Part shown: piece by piece, positions 22,519 to 30,468 of the stretch
Layout: each line of letters begins with the position of its first letter
How positions within the stretch are numbered: position 1 is the first letter of the stretch
DNA from: Desulfobacterales bacterium
GTDB lineage: Bacteria; Desulfobacterota; Desulfobacteria; Desulfobacterales; UBA2156
Direction of reading: 5' to 3'
NCBI GenBank assembly: GCA_027025555.1
Contig: JALVQN010000138.1
Span: forward strand, 1-32,289
Length of the DNA: 32,289 bases
The notes under the pieces: model-generated
Database searches by the model: none
Seen by the model: the letters and a program-made list of their open reading frames with translations, nothing else
What the model was told of the DNA's origin: nothing
Translations under genes and position numbers: made by a program

Positions 22519-22536
22519 TTGACAGTCGGATCCGAC
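22519..22536 (+). promoter_or_regulatory. TTGACA box joined to a perfect 12-bp palindrome, possible promoter/operator of the aro operon
   Basis: TTGACA (22519-22524) is followed directly by the perfect inverted repeat GTCGGATCCGAC (22525-22536). The -10 position at 17-base spacing reads TAAGGG, a poor match, so the promoter is tentative; a weak -10 with an operator in the spacer is a pattern seen with regulated promoters. It stands about 50 bases before the leader ORF. Confidence 0.35.
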
Positions 22537-22573
22537 CAGTCTAAGGGATTCCTATCGTGAGAAAGTAAAGACC

Positions 22574-22654
22574 ATGAGCGTATTTGAAAGACGCATTCAG
22601 CCGGTGGGCGGCTTTTATTTTTATTTCCGGGGGTGGACCATGCCCATGGCTTGA
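22574..22654 (+). CDS. Aromatic-rich leader peptide of the aro operon attenuator
   Basis: A 26-codon ORF just before the shikimate genes. Codons 14-18 are TTT-TAT-TTT-TAT-TTC (Phe-Tyr-Phe-Tyr-Phe) and codon 21 is TGG (Trp); Phe also occurs at codon 4. Six aromatic residues within eight codons is the signature of a leader peptide whose translation speed reports the charging of tRNA-Phe, tRNA-Tyr and tRNA-Trp. A purine-rich GAGAAAGTAAAG precedes the ATG as a modest ribosome site. The stop codon (22652-22654) lies at the edge of RNA segment 2 of the attenuator, and the terminator stem begins 23 bases later. Too short for ordinary gene calling; the peptide itself probably has no function. Confidence 0.85.
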   Translation: MSVFERRIQPVGGFYFYFRGWTMPMA

Positions 22655-22714
22655 TATGCGCCAATTCGTTTGCATTCAAGCCGTGGGCGGGTCACCCGCC
22701 CACGGCTTTTTTTT
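22599..22714 (+). promoter_or_regulatory. Ribosome-mediated transcription attenuator of the shikimate operon
   Basis: Four RNA segments can pair alternatively. Segment 1 (22599-22610) pairs with segment 2 (22641-22651), about 11 bp with one bulge. Segment 2 (22641-22652) pairs with segment 3 (22678-22689), 12 continuous pairs including two G-U: the antiterminator. Segment 3 (22678-22691) pairs perfectly with segment 4 (22695-22708): the terminator. The aromatic codons sit in the 1:2 loop (22613-22636). A ribosome stalled there covers segment 1 but frees segment 2, so 2:3 forms and transcription continues. A ribosome reaching the stop codon covers segment 2, so 3:4 forms and transcription ends. 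This is the trp/phe-leader logic of enteric bacteria, here placed before the whole common aromatic pathway. Confidence 0.82.
22678..22714 (+). terminator. Intrinsic terminator in the aro leader
   Basis: A perfect 14-bp stem AAGCCGTGGGCGGG/CCCGCCCACGGCTT with a TCA loop, followed by an uninterrupted T run (T107-T114 in local numbering 22707-22714). It lies only 18 bases before the aroK ATG, with no coding gene of normal size ending upstream on this strand. That placement points to regulated read-through rather than simple ending. Confidence 0.93.
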
Positions 22715-22732
22715 GGGGACAAAAATTTTTTC

Positions 22733-23260
22733 ATGACCATCGTATTGATCGGATATCGTTGCACGGGAAAGACCCGGGTGGGAAAGGTCCTTTCCCGGAA
22801 GCTGGAGATGGCCTTCATAGACACGGACCAGTGGATTGAACACCAGGAAGGGCGTTGCATCGGCGAAATTGTATCCCGGCATGGATGGGAGACTTTCAGG
22901 GCGCTGGAAGCCCGGGCCCTGCGGCGGAGATGCACCGAAGACGGCCTGGGGATCGCCACGGGAGGCGGTGTGGTGCTCGATACCCAAAACGTCATGTGCC
23001 TCAAACGAAGCGGCCGGGTGGTCTGGCTGGAGGCGGAACCCGAAACGATCCGCCGCCGCATGTTAGAAGAAGAAAAAGGCGCCCTGACACGACCGACTCT
23101 CACGGGTCTTGATCCCGCAAAGGAGATCGAGAGGGTGCTTTCGGATCGGACGCCCCTCTACCTTCAGGCCTCGGATTTCAGAATCGACACCACCTTGCTG
23201 AAGGTGGAGGAAGTGGCCGATCGCATCGCGGCGCGGATCATGATGGAAAGGATGGCTTGA
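22733..23260 (+). CDS. aroK: Shikimate kinase
   Basis: A 175-residue P-loop kinase that phosphorylates shikimate at the 3-position with ATP. Walker A is GYRCTGKT (residues 7-14); FIDTDQWIE gives the shikimate-binding Asp32; Arg56 (TFRALE) and the GGG at 77-79 (ATGGGVV) also contact shikimate. The lid Arg is in LTRPTL, and the adenine-side Arg in SDRTPLY. The start is ATG 22733, 18 bases after the leader terminator, with GGGGA 13 bases upstream. An in-frame TTG further upstream falls inside the terminator stem and is rejected. First gene of the aro operon; its stop overlaps the start region of aroC. Confidence 0.95.
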   Translation: MTIVLIGYRCTGKTRVGKVLSRKLEMAFIDTDQWIEHQEGRCIGEIVSRHGWETFRALEARALRRRCTEDGLGIATGGGVVLDTQNVMCLKRSGRVVWLEAEPETIRRRMLEEEKGALTRPTLTGLDPAKEIERVLSDRTPLYLQASDFRIDTTLLKVEEVADRIAARIMMERMA

Positions 23261-23262
23261 CC

Positions 23263-24351
23263 GTGGCCGGCAATGCATTCGGACGGGCCTTCAGGATCAC
23301 CACATTCGGGGAGTCCCACGGGCCCTGTGTGGGTGTGGTCATCGACGGCTGTCCCCCCGGCATTCCCATGGGTCCTGAAGATTTTTCCGCACAGATGTCC
23401 CGGAGAAGACCCGGGAAAGCCCCCCTGGACTCGCCTCGAAACGAAAAGGATCGCATAGAGATCCTCTCCGGTGTTTTCGAGAAAAAGACCACGGGGGCCC
23501 CCATCATGTTGCGCATCCCCAATGAAGACGTCAAGAGCGGGCCCTATGCGATCCTTGCCGGCCGTTTTCGTCCGGGACACGCGGACTACACCTACTTCAA
23601 GAAATACGGCCACTACGACCACCGGGGCGGGGGGAGGGCTTCGGCCCGGGAGACGGCCGCCCGGGTGGCCGCCGGCGTGGTGGCACAGAAAATCCTGGAC
23701 GGGCCGGGCATCACGGTCCTGGGGTATGCCCTGGAAATCGCGGGCGTCAAAGCCGAGCGCTTTGAGCCCCAAGAGATTGAATCCAACCCCTGCAGGTGCC
23801 CGGATCCCGAGGCGGCCGTGCGGATGGAAGCGGCCATGCGCCGGGCAAGGGGAAATCAGGATTCCGTGGGCGGCATCGCGGAAGTCCGGGTGACGGGATG
23901 TCCGGCGGGCCTGGGAGAACCGGTCTTCGACAAGCTCGACGCCGACCTCGCCAAGGCCGCCATGTCCATCGGTGCGGTGAAGGCCGTGGAGATCGGGGAC
24001 GGCCTGGAGGCTGCCCGCGCATTCGGCTCCCAAAACAACGATGCCCTCACCCCTTCAGGATTCAGGACGAATCATGCCGGCGGCATTCTGGGGGGCATTT
24101 CCAACGGGGACGAGATCCTCGTCAGGGTTGCCGTGAAGCCGATTCCTTCCATCGCCAGGGTGCAGGAGACCATTGACAGAAACGGGCGGGCGGCCTTGTT
24201 GGAGGTCAAGGGGCGTCACGACGTGTGCGCGGTGCCCCGGATCGTCCCCGTCCTGGAGGCCATGGTCCGCATCGTCCTGGCCGACCACCTCCTTCGTGCC
24301 AGGGCCCAGGGACCCGTTGTCGCATCCAAGGGGTCGGACGGGGATCCCTGA
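23263..24351 (+). CDS. aroC: Chorismate synthase
   Basis: A 362-residue flavin-dependent lyase converting EPSP to chorismate, the last common step. Signatures are the N-terminal [19 protein letters not shown], then [20 protein letters not shown] with RASARET, and [13 protein letters not shown] towards the end. The start is placed at GTG 23263, which gives the usual MAGNxFG beginning and a GAAAGGA ribosome site 10 bases away. A TTG at 23257, overlapping the aroK stop, would add two residues. The length is normal. The sequence does not show a fused flavin reductase, so reduced FMN must be provided by the cell. Confidence 0.96.
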
Positions 24352-24436: not shown

Positions 24437-25300
24437 ATGGAAAAGCTCAGGCTTGCGACCTGCAACGGCGGGGAAGGAAAACGGACCGTGATCCCCGTGG
24501 GCGATGTCCGCATCGGGGAAGACTTTGTGGTAATCGCGGGGCCCTGCAGCGTGGAGAGTGAAGCGCAGACCCTTCGCACCGCCACGGCGGTGAAGGCGGC
24601 CGGGGCCCACATGCTCCGGGGAGGCGCCTTCAAGCCGCGCACATCCCCTTACGACTTCCAGGGTCTGGGACTCCAGGGCCTCAAGATCCTGGAAAAGGCC
24701 AAGCGCCTCACCGGGCTTCCCGTGGTTACGGAAGTCACCGATCCCCGCGACGTCAGCTGGGTCTGTGAGTACGCCGACGTGCTTCAGATCGGTACCCGAA
24801 ACATGCAAAATTACTCCCTGCTCAAGGAGACGGGCAAGGTCCGGACCCCGGTGCTCCTCAAGCGCGGCATGTACTCCACCCTCAAGGAATGGCTTCACTG
24901 TGCGGAGTACATCCTCGCCGAGGGAAATCCCAACGTGATCCTCTGTGAACGGGGGATCCGAACCTTTGAAACCCATAACCGCAACACCTTGGACCTGGGG
25001 ATCGTCCCTTCCGTCAAGGAAATCAGCCACCTGCCCATTGTGGTGGATCCCTCCCACGGCACCGGGAGACTCAGCATCATCGAGCCCATGTGCCTGGCCG
25101 CTTTGGCCGCCGGAGCCGACGGCATCCTCATCGAGGTTCACTGCAATCCTCAAGAGGCCCTATGCGACCGGGACCAGGCCATGCCGCCGGACATGTTCCA
25201 AAGCCTCATGGAAAAGCTCTTCCACCTGCAGCGGGCCATGACACAGGTGGAAAGAGGACATATCCCATCCTCCCGGGAGGCCCCGGTTGCCATCCATTGA
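24437..25300 (+). CDS. aroF: DAHP synthase (type I-beta, AroF-like)
   Basis: A 287-residue enzyme condensing PEP and erythrose-4-phosphate, the entry step of the pathway. Motifs of the I-beta/KDOPS-like group are [45 protein letters not shown] and DPSHGTGR, with the metal-binding Cys, His and Glu residues in place. Only about 35 residues precede the barrel, so neither a ferredoxin-like/ACT regulatory domain nor a fused chorismate mutase is present. Such short forms are usually not feedback-inhibited. The ATG has AAAGGGAGA 8 bases upstream. It lies 85 bases after aroC, the widest gap in the operon. The stop overlaps aroB by 14 bases. Confidence 0.95.
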
Positions 25301-26336
25301 GATCAAAGGCATGACCGGCCGCTGCATTGTCCATCTGGAGGGGCGGCTGGCGGAACTGGACCGCTTCCTGCCCGATGCCAAGACCTTCCTCATCACGGAT
25401 CCCCATGTCCGCTCGGCCCTGGGGAAGCGATGCCCGTCCCTGCCGATTTTGGAAACCGGGACGGGGGAGGCCGCCAAGACCCTGGAAGGTGCCGCAAGGC
25501 TCTATGACGGGCTCCTGCGCCTGGGGTGTGACCGGTCTTCCTTCATCGTGGGCATGGGTGGAGGTGTCGTTTGCGATCTGACAGGATTCGTTGCCGCCAC
25601 CTTCATGCGCGGTATTGCCTTCGGTCTCGTGCCCACCACCCTCCTGGCTCAGGTGGACGCCGCCATCGGGGGCAAAAACGGTGTGAATTTCAAGGGCTAC
25701 AAGAACATGGTGGGCGTGTTCCGCCAGCCCCGGTTCGTACTCTGCGATCCGGAAACCCTTTCCAGCCTTCCGGAGGCCGAACTTCGAAACGGATTGGCGG
25801 AAGCGGTCAAGCACGGGGCCATTGCAGCGCCCGGGATCCTGGAATTCATCCGCGCCCACCTCTTTGAGATCCGGAAACGCCGCCCCGGCTGTCTGGGGCG
25901 CCTCGTGGCGGAGTCGGTGAGGGTCAAGGCAGCGGTGGTGAACCGGGACGAAAAAGAGGAAGGCCCTCGGCGGCTTCTCAATTTCGGGCACACTTTCGGG
26001 CATGCCCTGGAAAAGACCGTGGGCATCTCCCACGGGGAGGCGGTCTCGTTGGGGATGACCATCGCTGCAGGGCTTTCGGTTGAAAGAGGCCTCCTGGATC
26101 CTGAAGAAGCCCGGCGTTTGAACGAACACCTTTCCCGACTCGGGCTCCCCACAGCTGTTCCCCAGGACCCGGGGCCGCTGCTCAGGCAGATCACTCGGGA
26201 CAAGAAGCGCACCGGGGACCGGATCCACTTCGTGTGGCTCCGTCGTTTGGGCAACGCCTTGGTGGAGCCCCTTTCTTTTGGGGAACTGGAAGAAATCACA
26301 AACCTATGGTGGCGAGGTGTAAAGGATGAATCTTGA
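25287..26336 (+). CDS. aroB: 3-Dehydroquinate synthase
   Basis: A 349-residue NAD- and metal-dependent enzyme for the second step, from DAHP to 3-dehydroquinate. Seen are the NAD-binding [20 protein letters not shown], the substrate/metal region [18 protein letters not shown], the Glu in [13 protein letters not shown] and the metal-binding His motif [11 protein letters not shown]. The start is TTG, 6 bases after a GGGAGG ribosome site. It overlaps the end of aroF by 14 bases and pheA by 11 bases, so coupled translation is likely. The length and all motifs are normal. Confidence 0.95.
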
Positions 26337-27381
26337 TCGGATCAGAAAAGAGATCGACCGGGTGGACACCCGGCTTCTCAACCTGCTCAACGAGCGGATG
26401 GCGCTGGTTCTGGAAGCGCGCCGGTACAAAGACCAGGCGGAAGATCCCAAGCGCGAAAAGGCCCTCTTCGGACTCTTGGAGGAAAGGGCCACCCGCCTGG
26501 TGGACAAAGCCTTTATCGGAAAAATCTTCGAGGCCATCGTGTCCAAGAGCAAGGCCCTCCAGGATACGGATCACCGGCTCGTGGGATTTCAGGGAAAACA
26601 CGGCGCCTACAGCGAACTGGCGGCCCGGGCCTGGGATCCCGAGACGGTGCCCATCCCCACCACGTCTTTTGAAGATGTCTTTGAAGGAGTGGAATCGGGG
26701 CTGTTCGATTACGGGGTGGTGCCTGTGGAAAATACCCTGGGAGGTTCCGTGGACCAGGTGAATCGCCTCTTGATCCGAAGCGATCTTCGGATCGTGGGGG
26801 CCGTGGAACTTCCGGTGCACCTCTGTCTTTTGGCCCTTCCCGAGACGGACCACCGGGAGATTCGAGCCGCCTATTCCCATCCCAAGGCCCTGGCCCAATG
26901 CCGCTTGTTCCTCCACCGGAACCGGATCGAACCCATCCATTTTTCGGATACGGCGGGCGCCGCCAAGATGCTGGCCGAGGAAAGGCCCCGGGGCGCGGCC
27001 GCCGTCGCAAGCAAAGCCTGCGCCAGACTCTATCGGCTGGAGATTTTGAAGGAAAATATCGAGGATTTGGATCGCAACGTGACCCGGTTCGTGGTCCTGT
27101 CCAGACAGACCCAGGACCTTGAGGGACACAAATGTTCCGTGGTCTTTTCCACGGAACACAAGGCCGGAACCCTCTATCGCGTCCTTGAGATTTTCGCCGG
27201 CCAAGGGATCAACCTCACCCGGATCGAATCGATCCCTGCAAGCCCCGGCGAATACGCTTTTTTCCTGGATTTTTTGGGTTCAACGGAAGAAGACAAGGTC
27301 CGGTCGGCCCTGGAGCAAGCCCGGAAGGTGACCTCCCGGTTCCGGCTGATGGGCTGCTACAAGGAGGTGCGGGCGTCATGA
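26326..27381 (+). CDS. pheA: Bifunctional chorismate mutase/prephenate dehydratase (P-protein)
   Basis: A 351-residue fusion that leads chorismate into phenylalanine. Residues 1-82 form an AroQ chorismate mutase ([20 protein letters not shown], with EDPKREKAL as the ligand helix). Residues 84-265 form prephenate dehydratase (GFQGKHGAYSELA, VPVENTLGGSVDQV, and the catalytic Thr-Arg-Phe in RNVTRFVVLS). The rest is an ACT domain for phenylalanine (AGTLYRVLEIFAGQGINLTR). The usual ESRP motif of that domain reads ESIP, and GALY reads GTLY, so phenylalanine binding may be altered. It overlaps aroB and, by ATGA, the next gene. Confidence 0.95.
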   Translation: MNLDRIRKEIDRVDTRLLNLLNERMALVLEARRYKDQAEDPKREKALFGLLEERATRLVDKAFIGKIFEAIVSKSKALQDTDHRLVGFQGKHGAYSELAARAWDPETVPIPTTSFEDVFEGVESGLFDYGVVPVENTLGGSVDQVNRLLIRSDLRIVGAVELPVHLCLLALPETDHREIRAAYSHPKALAQCRLFLHRNRIEPIHFSDTAGAAKMLAEERPRGAAAVASKACARLYRLEILKENIEDLDRNVTRFVVLSRQTQDLEGHKCSVVFSTEHKAGTLYRVLEIFAGQGINLTRIESIPASPGEYAFFLDFLGSTEEDKVRSALEQARKVTSRFRLMGCYKEVRAS

Positions 27382-27680
27382 GGATCCTGGTGATGGGTGC
27401 AGGGCGCATGGGGGCGTGGCTCGTGGAGGCGCTGTGCCCCTTCGATCCCCGACTGCTCCTCAACGCCGTGAGCCTGCCGGAGACCCGCGAAGCCTTTGAA
27501 GCTGTTTTGCCCCACCTGGGAGACGATTGCATCCTGGCGGAGGTCCTTTTCAACCCTTACACCGTGGAACAGATCGAACGGATCAACGCCCAGCTTTGCT
27601 ACCTGACCCACATCATCCAGGGGAGGGACCTGGAAGAGATGGAAACATTTCTGAAAAGCCCTCGGAAAAACATCGGGTAA
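27378..27680 (+). CDS. Internally deleted prephenate dehydrogenase (TyrA-like)
   Basis: A 100-residue ORF whose parts match the ends of the compact TyrA type (about 255 residues). MRILVMGAGRMGAWLVEAL is the start of the NAD-binding fold. LLLNAVSLPETREAFEAVLP with CILAEV is the later part of that fold. LFNPYTVEQIERINAQLCY to the end matches the C-terminal helices. The stretch between the first two pieces (about 45 residues) and that between the last two (about 130 residues, with the THPMFGP region and the catalytic His) are missing, with no frame break. It cannot be an active dehydrogenase. It overlaps pheA as ATGA and ends 12 bases before aroD, so it may persist only as a translational link. 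Confidence 0.8.
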   Translation: MRILVMGAGRMGAWLVEALCPFDPRLLLNAVSLPETREAFEAVLPHLGDDCILAEVLFNPYTVEQIERINAQLCYLTHIIQGRDLEEMETFLKSPRKNIG

Positions 27681-27692
27681 GGGGGGCTGCCC

Positions 27693-28364
27693 ATGATCTG
27701 CGTCCCCATCCGTGCCCGAAACACCCCCGAAGCCCTGGATAAGATGACCCGGGCCGCACGCCTGGCAGACCTGGTGGAATTGAGGCTGGACCTGATGGAA
27801 ACATTCGATTTGGAAACCCTGCTAGGCCAAGCCCCCTGCCCTGTGATCGTCACGTATCGTTCCGTGAAAGAGGGGGGGAGGGGCCGGGCAACATACAGGG
27901 AGCAGGTCCGGATCCTGACACGGGCGGCAGCCGCCGGCGCCCGATGGATCGACGTGGAGTTTGGCATGCCCCGTGAATTCAAAAGGGTGATCCGAAAAAA
28001 CCGCCGGGATGCGGGGCTCCTCGTTTCCTGTCACCTGCAACACGGAACCCCCGACAGAAAATCCCTGGAAGAGCTCCTGTGGCGGATGGATACAATGAAC
28101 GCAGACATGGTGAAGATCGTCACCCTGGCCCGAAGTTACGAGGACAACCTTCGGGTCCTGGGCCTGATTCCCCTGGCCCGAAAGCTGGGAATTGGAGTGG
28201 TGGCCTTTTGCATGGGACCGAAGGGGCGGCCCAGCCGGGTGCTTGCGCCTCTTCTGGGAGCCGCCTTTACCTTTGCCTCCCTCAAGGCCGGGGAAGAGAC
28301 GGCTGCCGGGCAGCTTTTTCTGGAAGAAACCCGATGGATCCTGAACCGACTCGGCGGCGCATAG
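27693..28364 (+). CDS. aroD: 3-Dehydroquinate dehydratase, type I
   Basis: A 223-residue class I dehydroquinase, forming 3-dehydroshikimate through a Schiff base. The Schiff-base Lys is Lys141 (DMVKIVTLA), the catalytic His is His114 (VSCHLQHGTP), and the substrate Glu29/Arg31 are in VELRLDLM. The C-terminal FCMGPKGRPSRVL loop with Arg and Ser also fits. The ATG follows AAGGGGGG. The gene overlaps the start of aroE by 31 bases. It is shorter than plant or fungal forms but normal for archaeal and some bacterial ones. Confidence 0.94.
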   Translation: MICVPIRARNTPEALDKMTRAARLADLVELRLDLMETFDLETLLGQAPCPVIVTYRSVKEGGRGRATYREQVRILTRAAAAGARWIDVEFGMPREFKRVIRKNRRDAGLLVSCHLQHGTPDRKSLEELLWRMDTMNADMVKIVTLARSYEDNLRVLGLIPLARKLGIGVVAFCMGPKGRPSRVLAPLLGAAFTFASLKAGEETAAGQLFLEETRWILNRLGGA

Positions 28365-29179
28365 GCTTTGGGACCGCCCTTTACGGGGTGGTGGGGCATC
28401 CCTTGCGGCATTCCCTGAGCCCTCTGATGCACAACCGGGCCTTTGAAGCCCTGGGGATCGATGCCGTGTACCTCCCCTTTGAAACCGCCGACATCCAGGG
28501 GGCCATCGGCGGTGCCAGGGCACTCGGCATCCAGGGGCTCAGCATCACCCTACCCCACAAACAGGCCGTCATGGCGTGCCTGGACCGGTTGGATCCGCTG
28601 GCTGAAAAAATCGGCGCCGTCAACACCGTGGTCAAACGGGGGAAAAAGCTTGTGGGCTTCAACACGGATGCCTCAGGCGCCCTTGAGGCCCTGGAATCCC
28701 GCCTGGGTGAAAGGTCCCTTTCCGGGATGTCTTGTCTTTTGGTGGGCGCCGGCGGCGCCGCCCGGGCCGTGGGCTTTGCGCTTCAGGAAAGGGGGGCCCG
28801 TCTTGCCCTTTGGAACCGTTCGCGACAGCGGGGGGAGCAGGCGGCCGCGGCCCTGGGGGGTCGTTTTTTGTCCGCAGCCGAAGTGCCGGATTTCAGAGCC
28901 GACCTCCTGGTAAACGCCACCCCCGTCGGGATGTTTCCCGGCGTGGACGCCTGTCCCGTGCCGGATAGAATGCTGAAAAAAGGCATGGTGGTCATGGACC
29001 TGGTTTACAACCCGGTCCAAACCCTGCTCCTTTCAAAGGCCAAGGCCCGGGGGTGCATCCCCATAAGCGGCCTCGACATGTTCCTCTTCCAGGGAGCGGC
29101 GCAATTGAGACTCTGGACCGGCCGAAAAGCGCCCATGGAAACCCTGCGGGCGGCCCTCTCAAAGGCCCTTGTCCCATGA
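28334..29179 (+). CDS. aroE: Shikimate dehydrogenase
   Basis: A 281-residue NADP-dependent reductase of 3-dehydroshikimate. The substrate domain carries YGVVGHPLRHSLSPLMHN (Ser27, Ser29), ITLPHKQAV with catalytic Lys76, and GFNTDASG with catalytic Asp112. The cofactor domain has GAGGAARAV and NRSRQRG, a pattern that favours NADP, and NATPVGMFP. A late Gln is in FLFQGAAQLRLW. The start is ATG 28334 within the end of aroD, preceded by GGAAG. The stop overlaps the aroA ATG as ATGA. Confidence 0.95.
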   Translation: MDPEPTRRRIGFGTALYGVVGHPLRHSLSPLMHNRAFEALGIDAVYLPFETADIQGAIGGARALGIQGLSITLPHKQAVMACLDRLDPLAEKIGAVNTVVKRGKKLVGFNTDASGALEALESRLGERSLSGMSCLLVGAGGAARAVGFALQERGARLALWNRSRQRGEQAAAALGGRFLSAAEVPDFRADLLVNATPVGMFPGVDACPVPDRMLKKGMVVMDLVYNPVQTLLLSKAKARGCIPISGLDMFLFQGAAQLRLWTGRKAPMETLRAALSKALVP

Positions 29180-30468
29180 AGCGCGGAAAAACCTTCGCCG
29201 AAGGCCACGTTCAGGTGGGATTGCCTCCTTCCAAGAGCCTGACCCACCGGGCCCTGGTGGCCGCTGCACTGGCCCGGGGGACCAGCCGGATCCGCCGTCC
29301 CCTGCTGTGTGAGGACACGCTTTACACCGTGGAAGGCCTCAGACGCCTGGGCGTGCCGGTGGAGATCAAGGAAGGGGAGATGGCGGTCCATGGGACGGAC
29401 GGGCACTTCCCGGAGGTTTCGCCGCCTCCGACCCTTTTTCTGGGAAACTCGGGCACCAGTTTCCGTTTTCTCCTGGCCCTGGCCGCCCTGGGACCGGGCG
29501 AGCGTCTCCTTACCGGAAGTCCCCGAATGGGGCAACGCCCCATCGGAGATCTCTGCCGGGCCCTGGAGACTCTGGGAACACGCGTTACCTTTTTGAAACG
29601 CGAAGGCTTTCCACCCGTGCGCATCCACGGCCGGGGCCTTTCAGGGGGGAGGATCCGCCTTCCCGGAGATAAGAGCAGCCAGTTCGTATCCGCCCTTTTG
29701 CTGGCAGCCCCCTGTGCCTTAACGAACGTGGAAATTACGGTTCCGGACGGCCTTGTCTCCAAGCCCTACGTGGACCTTACCACCGCGGTGATGGCACGTT
29801 TCGGCGTGGAGGTCAACCGGCATGGATATGCGCGCTTTCGGGTCCCGGCGCCCCAACACTTCCGCGCTGCAGACTTCACCGTGGAAGGGGATGTCTCCAG
29901 CGCCTCCTATTTCTGGGCCGCCGCGGCTGTCACCGGCAATGCGGTGACCACGGCCCCTGTGGATCCCCGCCATACGCTCCAGGGAGACATCCGCTTCCTC
30001 GACACCCTGGAAGCCATGGGATGCGCCGTTGAAAGGGGCACCGAAAGGATAACCGTCCGCGGAGGGCCTTTGCGCGCAGTCCACGTGGACATGGCCGCCA
30101 TGCCCGATCTGGTGCCCACCCTGGCGGCCGTGGCGTTGTTTGCCCGGGGAAGAACCCGCATCCGGAACGTGGCCCACCTGCGCCTCAAGGAAAGCGACAG
30201 ACTCAAGGCGGTGGCCGGCGAATGGCGCCGCCTCGGGGCAGGGGTTGAAGAATTCCCCGACGGCCTTGCCATTGACGGAAACCGCCCCCTGCGACCGGCC
30301 CTGACCCTTGCCCACGACGATCACCGGATCGCCATGAGCCTTGCGGTGATTGCCCTCAGGATCCCGGGACTCCGGATCGAGGGCACCGGATGCGTGGCCA
30401 AGTCCTTCCCCGGCTTCTGGGAGGCGTGGACCCCGGTCAAGGCGGCGTTGACCGGGGGCACAGACTAG
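29176..30468 (+). CDS. aroA: EPSP synthase (3-phosphoshikimate 1-carboxyvinyltransferase)
   Basis: A 430-residue enzyme joining PEP to shikimate-3-phosphate. The N-terminal substrate motif is LPPSKSLTHRALVAAALA (Lys20, Ser21, Arg25). The PEP/glyphosate loop reads LFLGNSGTSFRFLLALA, differing from the sensitive class I form (GNAGTAMRP). DKSSQFVSALLLAAP is in the middle, and RLKESDRLKAV with DDHRIAMSLAV are near the end. The ATG 29176 overlaps the aroE stop. It is the last gene of the operon; 23 bases later the convergent peroxiredoxin ends, with no convincing terminator between. Confidence 0.95.
   Translation: MKRGKTFAEGHVQVGLPPSKSLTHRALVAAALARGTSRIRRPLLCEDTLYTVEGLRRLGVPVEIKEGEMAVHGTDGHFPEVSPPPTLFLGNSGTSFRFLLALAALGPGERLLTGSPRMGQRPIGDLCRALETLGTRVTFLKREGFPPVRIHGRGLSGGRIRLPGDKSSQFVSALLLAAPCALTNVEITVPDGLVSKPYVDLTTAVMARFGVEVNRHGYARFRVPAPQHFRAADFTVEGDVSSASYFWAAAAVTGNAVTTAPVDPRHTLQGDIRFLDTLEAMGCAVERGTERITVRGGPLRAVHVDMAAMPDLVPTLAAVALFARGRTRIRNVAHLRLKESDRLKAVAGEWRRLGAGVEEFPDGLAIDGNRPLRPALTLAHDDHRIAMSLAVIALRIPGLRIEGTGCVAKSFPGFWEAWTPVKAALTGGTD

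Follow-up and report, generated by a model that had tools for sequence, protein, structure and literature searches.

The region upstream of aroK in the DNA analyzed here, a stretch of 32,289 nucleotides from a Desulfobacterales bacterium (referred to below as the window), very probably carries a ribosome-mediated transcription attenuator of the trp/phe-leader style that would control the whole common aromatic pathway. The initial annotation of this region had described a 26-codon leader ORF at 22574–22654 with five aromatic codons in a row and a Trp codon, followed by three hairpins that exclude one another and, 18 bases before aroK, a terminator of 14 bp with eight Ts. The coordinates of the ORF were correct, and both the hairpins and the terminator were verified. 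The features of the window are collected in Table 1.

Table 1. Features of the leader region and of the downstream aro operon in the window
Feature	Coordinates	Strand	Remarks
TTGACA, −35 of likely sigma-70 promoter	22519–22524	+	55 nt 5' of leader ATG
Leader peptide ORF MSVFERRIQPVGGFYFYFRGWTMPMA	22574–22654	+	26 codons; homologous leaders in relatives
Segment 1, 5' arm of 1:2, directly 5' of aromatic run	22592–22613	+	1:2 covariation
Predicted sensor run Phe-Tyr-Phe-Tyr-Phe (TTT TAT TTT TAT TTC)	22613–22627	+	stall-position model
Single Trp codon	22634–22636	+	unproductive position by stall model
Segment 2, partner of segment 1	22635–22660	+	22638–22652 part is partner of segment 3
Segment 3, terminator 5' arm	22678–22691	+	
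Segment 4, terminator 3' arm	22695–22708	+	T8 tract 22707–22714
aroK/aroL, shikimate kinase	22733–23260	+	first operon gene
aroC, chorismate synthase	23257–24351	+	
DAHP synthase, TIGR01361 type	24470–25300	+	start codon not fixed
aroB, 3-dehydroquinate synthase	25287–26336	+	
pheA, chorismate mutase-prephenate dehydratase	26326–27381	+	
100-aa ORF MRILVMGAGRMG...	27378–27680	+	between pheA and aroD, where tyrA might be
aroD, type I 3-dehydroquinate dehydratase	27693–28364	+	E 4.9e-37, somewhat below curated cut-off
aroE, shikimate dehydrogenase	28373–29179	+	start approximate
aroA, EPSP synthase	29212–30468	+	start approximate

The leader ORF is short, is predicted to be translated from a weak ribosome-binding site, and is rich in codons for the products of the pathway. 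The 15-mer pattern of the FYFYF codons occurs once within the window, as against 0 expected from 100 shuffles. Between the leader and the first gene lies an intrinsic terminator (22678–22708) with 14 perfect pairs, 11 of which are G-C, and a 3-nt loop; eight Ts follow to 22714, and the T tract ends 18 bases 5' of the aroK ATG (22733). Segments 1, 2, and 3 are mutually complementary, so that the pairings 1:2 (22592–22613 with 22635–22660; −25.3 kcal/mol), 2:3 (22638–22652 with 22678–22691; −24.2 kcal/mol), and 3:4 (the terminator hairpin; −29.5 kcal/mol) exclude one another. Folding of the leader region (22560–22720), a check proposed in the initial annotation, gave a structure more stable than 200 of 200 dinucleotide shuffles (z = −4.0).

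The −10 candidate that follows the TTGACA hexamer, TAAGGG at 22542–22547, is weak, and the promoter was absent from the output of a simple promoter scan of the window. TTGAC was found 5' of the leader ATG in all 15 sampled leaders and at −53 to −74 in 14 of them, and this conserved position indicates that the transcript probably begins with the leader. In the scheme that we infer for transcription start, stalling, read-through, and the amino acids sensed, RNA polymerase would start near 22550 and the leader would be translated. When charged tRNA-Phe and tRNA-Tyr are ample, the ribosome would reach the stop codon and cover segment 2, 3:4 would form, and transcription would terminate around position 22714. 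A shortage of Phe or Tyr would make the ribosome stall on FYFYF and cover segment 1, 2:3 would form instead of the terminator, and aroK to aroA would be transcribed. If the leader is not translated, 1:2 would form and 3:4 would again cause termination.

The operon placed under this predicted control is the complete shikimate operon that had been claimed, with all seven common-pathway steps and, in addition, pheA of the Phe branch. The 100-aa ORF downstream of pheA had no significant Pfam match; its start (MRILVMGAGRMG) resembles an NAD-binding start, and it is possibly a shortened or degraded tyrA. In relatives (including L099, L104, and L130), many operons start with DKFP-pathway-like genes, an aldolase and a second dehydroquinate synthase type; the window, in contrast, has DAHP synthase and AroB, with aroK first. 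The window, a single contig, belongs to a 2.68-Mb genome with an assembly rated 96.8% complete. No match to trpE was detected in this assembly (the control was found in 14 of 14 reference genomes), and only distant matches to trpB were obtained, which is consistent with, although not proof of, the possibility that the organism may not make tryptophan.

According to the initial annotation, a lack of leader conservation or of compensatory changes in related genomes would speak against an attenuator, and the idea survived this test on both counts. An RNA covariance model of the leader region matched 319 of 389 genomes of the order Desulfobacterales, including 185 of the 201 good-quality ones, and pairings 1:2 and 3:4 covary (see below). 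The leader was not found in the region just 5' of aroK in relatives because aroK is internal to the operon in those genomes; their leaders are located at the true operon 5' ends, 4–6 kb further upstream of aroK, where sequences such as MVSKFSGGFYFYFWYFYFGTGLPGMR (L126) and MQTSWGRYYFYFWYYFNTGLPGVR (L116) are followed by terminators and then by aro genes. A same-genus genome (G002) has the leader MYIYRSWQNFYWFYFSRRPLPMD. The first gene after the leader encodes a DKFP-pathway aldolase or DAHP synthase, or is pheA or aroK, and the leader keeps its position at the operon 5' end despite exchange of the first gene.

An unbiased scan of 84,980 named species genomes was carried out with a DNA pattern built from the leader alone. 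It gave 45 matches. Of these, 30 were real leaders, from records with names such as Desulfobacterales or Desulfobacteraceae; 28 were positioned 118–387 nt 5' of an aro gene and 2 stood at a cut locus end. The remaining 15 matches had no aro gene nearby. Across the phylum, the RNA covariance model matched 176 of 395 genomes at E ≤ 0.01, a count that includes uninspected weakest matches. Among 17 inspected loci outside the order, the leader precedes aro genes in 13, including three (L241, L244, and L248) with aroK-aroC operons like that of the window; 2 loci are cut, and 2 have the leader before ABC-transporter binding-protein genes. The window itself scored 50 bits with the model, below most order members, and its run of 5 aromatic codons compares with a family mean of 8.2 aromatic residues (177 leaders, one per genome).

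Phe and Tyr are both present in all 177 leaders, and in the runs of 51 distinct leaders the codons are almost exclusively TTY (166 of 167 TTN codons) and TAY (215 of 215 TAN codons; together 381 of 382). One could argue that the terminator just ends transcription of the upstream genes, that the leader ORF is a chance frame, and that the aroK promoter lies further down: the terminator is a strong one, other genes lie in the region before it, and T-rich short ORFs can occur by chance. Throughout the order, however, aro operons are preceded by the whole set of frame, TTY/TAY-only codons, flanking segments, and terminator, and this set shows compensatory changes; the gap from the T tract to aroK is only 18 nt, and TTGACA is conserved 5' of the leader. 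We therefore regard a chance frame as highly improbable and favor the attenuator.

Several variants of the leader were observed in the family. The aromatic run often has one interrupting residue at a fixed position; this residue is Trp, Arg, or Gly in most cases, and its codon is often NGG. At three loci (L148:1843–1923, L149, and L151), a second type of leader that is nearly Phe-only (e.g., MTRTAAFNRFFTFGRFFFFRSVHPDV) and is accompanied by terminators stands before an aroF-pheA operon, and in the same genomes the aro operon itself carries a Phe/Tyr(/Trp) leader. In another order of the phylum (L250 and L253), Phe-rich leaders (MLKNYFFKKAVFFYFFSFINLKVCLTES; MIKKQITNQAAFFFFYFFSFNGFKGCLDVS) with terminator-like structure stand before genes for an ABC-transporter periplasmic binding protein (Peripla_BP_6).

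Covariation of the segments was scored in an alignment of 44 sequences. Both-side changes were seen in 8 of 10 pairs of 1:2, with a covariation score of 0.283 (0.149 in shuffled alignments, 0/500), and in 6 of 10 pairs of 3:4, with a score of 0.276 (0.179 shuffled, 0/500), these shuffle statistics being ones that ignore sequence relatedness. For 2:3, 85.5% of the cells were paired, compared with 32–47% when the segments were slid against each other, and both-side changes occurred in 3 pairs. The covariation of 2:3 is weak, and its support comes from conserved complementarity more than from covariation because segment 2 is constrained three ways and is nearly invariant. When the duplex formed with the true partner was compared with that formed with swapped partners, using one leader per family (n = 27), which lowers but does not remove the kinship effect, the matched excess was z = −7.4 for 1:2, −2.3 for 2:3, and −9.7 for 3:4; in the leaders with a second terminator (n = 18), it was −4.5 for 4:5 and −8.7 for 5:6. 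With one leader per family, the pairings 2:5, 3:6, 1:6, 2:4, and 3:5, used as controls, gave no excess for the true partner. Hence the three competing pairings of an attenuator are present together with compensatory change, which is strong in 1:2 and 3:4 and weak in 2:3.

These base-pairing data also bear on whether the peptide acts as a nascent-chain arrest peptide, as TnaC does, in which the SGR...GLPGVR residues would be read in the exit tunnel and stalling would not depend on the codons of the run. In much of the family, the residues on either side of the run (SGR and GLPxVR) are indeed well conserved, yet the codons for SGR and GLPxVR are exactly those that form segments 1 and 2, and they covary as base pairs. 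Moreover, the residues are changed in some leaders (VGG/MPM in the window and HGQ/CPW in L100) while the base pairing is retained, and the run accepts any mixture of Phe, Tyr, and Trp. An arrest peptide is thus very unlikely, and codon-dependent stalling within an attenuator is the reading that we retain.

The amino acids sensed were addressed with a stall model, in which an assumed ribosome footprint, extending 17 nt 5' and 12 nt 3' of the A-site codon, is masked, the unmasked RNA is folded before segment 4 is made, and the upstream pairing of segment 3 is read. With the ribosome on any of the five run codons of the window, the modeled upstream pairing of segment 3 was 0.97–0.98; at the stop codon it was 0.56, so that the loss of 2:3 there is only partial in the model. 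The value for the Trp codon was 0.39, the lowest among all codons; a ribosome stalled there would cover segment 2. In the family, segment 3 generally stays paired upstream when the modeled stall is in the run and mostly does not when it is in the tail or at the stop codon. Sensor codons are thus placed productively in the model for Phe and Tyr but not for the Trp codon of the window, and Phe and Tyr are the signals that the window leader likely senses. What had been proposed was a leader-peptide attenuator that senses all three aromatic amino acids; the attenuator is strongly supported by the comparative evidence and the productive positions of the Phe and Tyr codons by the stall model, and Trp sensing in the window is not supported.

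Sensing of all three aromatic amino acids by the window leader is, in our judgment, unlikely. The window does have a Trp codon, and about half of the relatives (89 of 177 leaders) have one inside the run, where the stall model finds it productive; that of the window, however, is at the edge of segment 2, and the window assembly has no trpE match and only distant matches to trpB. An association between Trp in the run and trpE had appeared suggestive in a few genomes and was dropped when the comparison with trpE presence across the order, in 177 leaders, gave 9/26 versus 80/151 (p = 0.09, not significant).

The window holds a single-terminator copy of the element; most relatives have two. In 36 of the 50 leaders with a parsed terminator there is a second one, the 5' arm of which is complementary to, and covaries with, the 3' arm of the first. 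The clearest case of the resulting 4:5 pairing is that of L131 (CCCTGCGGC/GCCGCAGGG), in which the same base is unpaired in 5:6. The arrangement suggests that 2:3 in the relatives would release segment 4, which would then pair with segment 5 and open the second terminator. Most relatives would then have a six-segment chain (2:3 and 4:5 versus 3:4 and 5:6) in which one stall opens two terminators, and the window copy would be a shortened form that has one terminator and senses Phe and Tyr. Part of the 4:5 signal could simply reflect similarity of the two terminator hairpins. Against this repeat similarity, covariation is absent from 3:6 (z = +0.8), and in the full set 4:5 exceeded a reverse-complement-of-3 control (p = 0.003); in the set with one leader per family alone, it did not (p = 0.55). 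Because this control gave a split result between the two sets, we consider the six-segment chain about evenly balanced between right and wrong.

The trpL, pheL (pheA), and pheST leaders of Escherichia coli each sense one amino acid and control terminal-branch or synthetase genes, and the window element resembles them in its 1:2/2:3/3:4 logic and its amino-acid-rich leader peptide. In the E. coli ilvGMEDA and thr leaders, several amino acids of a shared pathway are read by one leader, but these are branched-chain amino acids or Thr and Ile rather than aromatic ones. The initial annotation confined known aromatic attenuators to one sensed amino acid and mostly to enteric bacteria, which overlooks aroR of Corynebacterium glutamicum and a predicted attenuator of Desulfovibrio vulgaris. 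The aroR leader, as described in PMC11802643, has a Phe-Tyr-Phe motif before the aroF (DAHP synthase) operon and acts by ribosome-stalling attenuation; that source, describing Neshat et al. 2014, gives it as responsive to Phe and not to Tyr. Compared by described motif and gene context, aroR shares with the element studied here an FYF leader, common-pathway genes, stalling, and attenuation. It differs in being actinobacterial, with an operon containing aroF; most members of the family described here have a longer run, the window has the whole common pathway, and the family spans Desulfobacterota. In D. vulgaris, a putative attenuator from the Merino database is listed for aroA'-aroB'-pheA-aroF-tyrA-[trp] in Table 7 of PMC1173090. 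It is likewise a predicted attenuator in an aromatic supraoperon of a sulfate reducer, with the same DKFP-pathway first genes as many relatives here, but the listing is a terminator/antiterminator prediction alone, and PMC1173090 gives for it neither a leader peptide, nor the amino acids sensed, nor conservation or covariation. Keyword searches of the openly readable genome surveys PMC2965389, PMC3766115, and PMC1262725 returned no aromatic leader for this group, and in the Shewanella survey PMC2659441 the same kind of search found aroF and aroH candidates named only. The mechanism is that of the classic leader-peptide attenuator; what appears new is that a Phe/Tyr leader would serve the complete common pathway, that it occurs throughout the order and beyond, and that its terminators are often in tandem and possibly coupled.

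The window gave no Rfam match at the gathering score among 4227 families, including the Trp, Phe, His, Leu, and Thr leaders and the T-box, and roughly 320 sampled genomes of the order thus carry an apparently unannotated regulator. Most sulfate-reducing relatives share this arrangement, through which ribosomes probably sense aromatic shortage and turn the whole pathway on. If this is true, an entire bacterial order, one of major sulfate reducers, together with parts of its phylum, controls the common aromatic pathway through one stalling leader for Phe and Tyr, often with one Trp codon in addition, in place of single-amino-acid leaders or repressors. The tandem-terminator chain of the relatives would represent a testable design, with two terminators under the control of a single ribosome decision.
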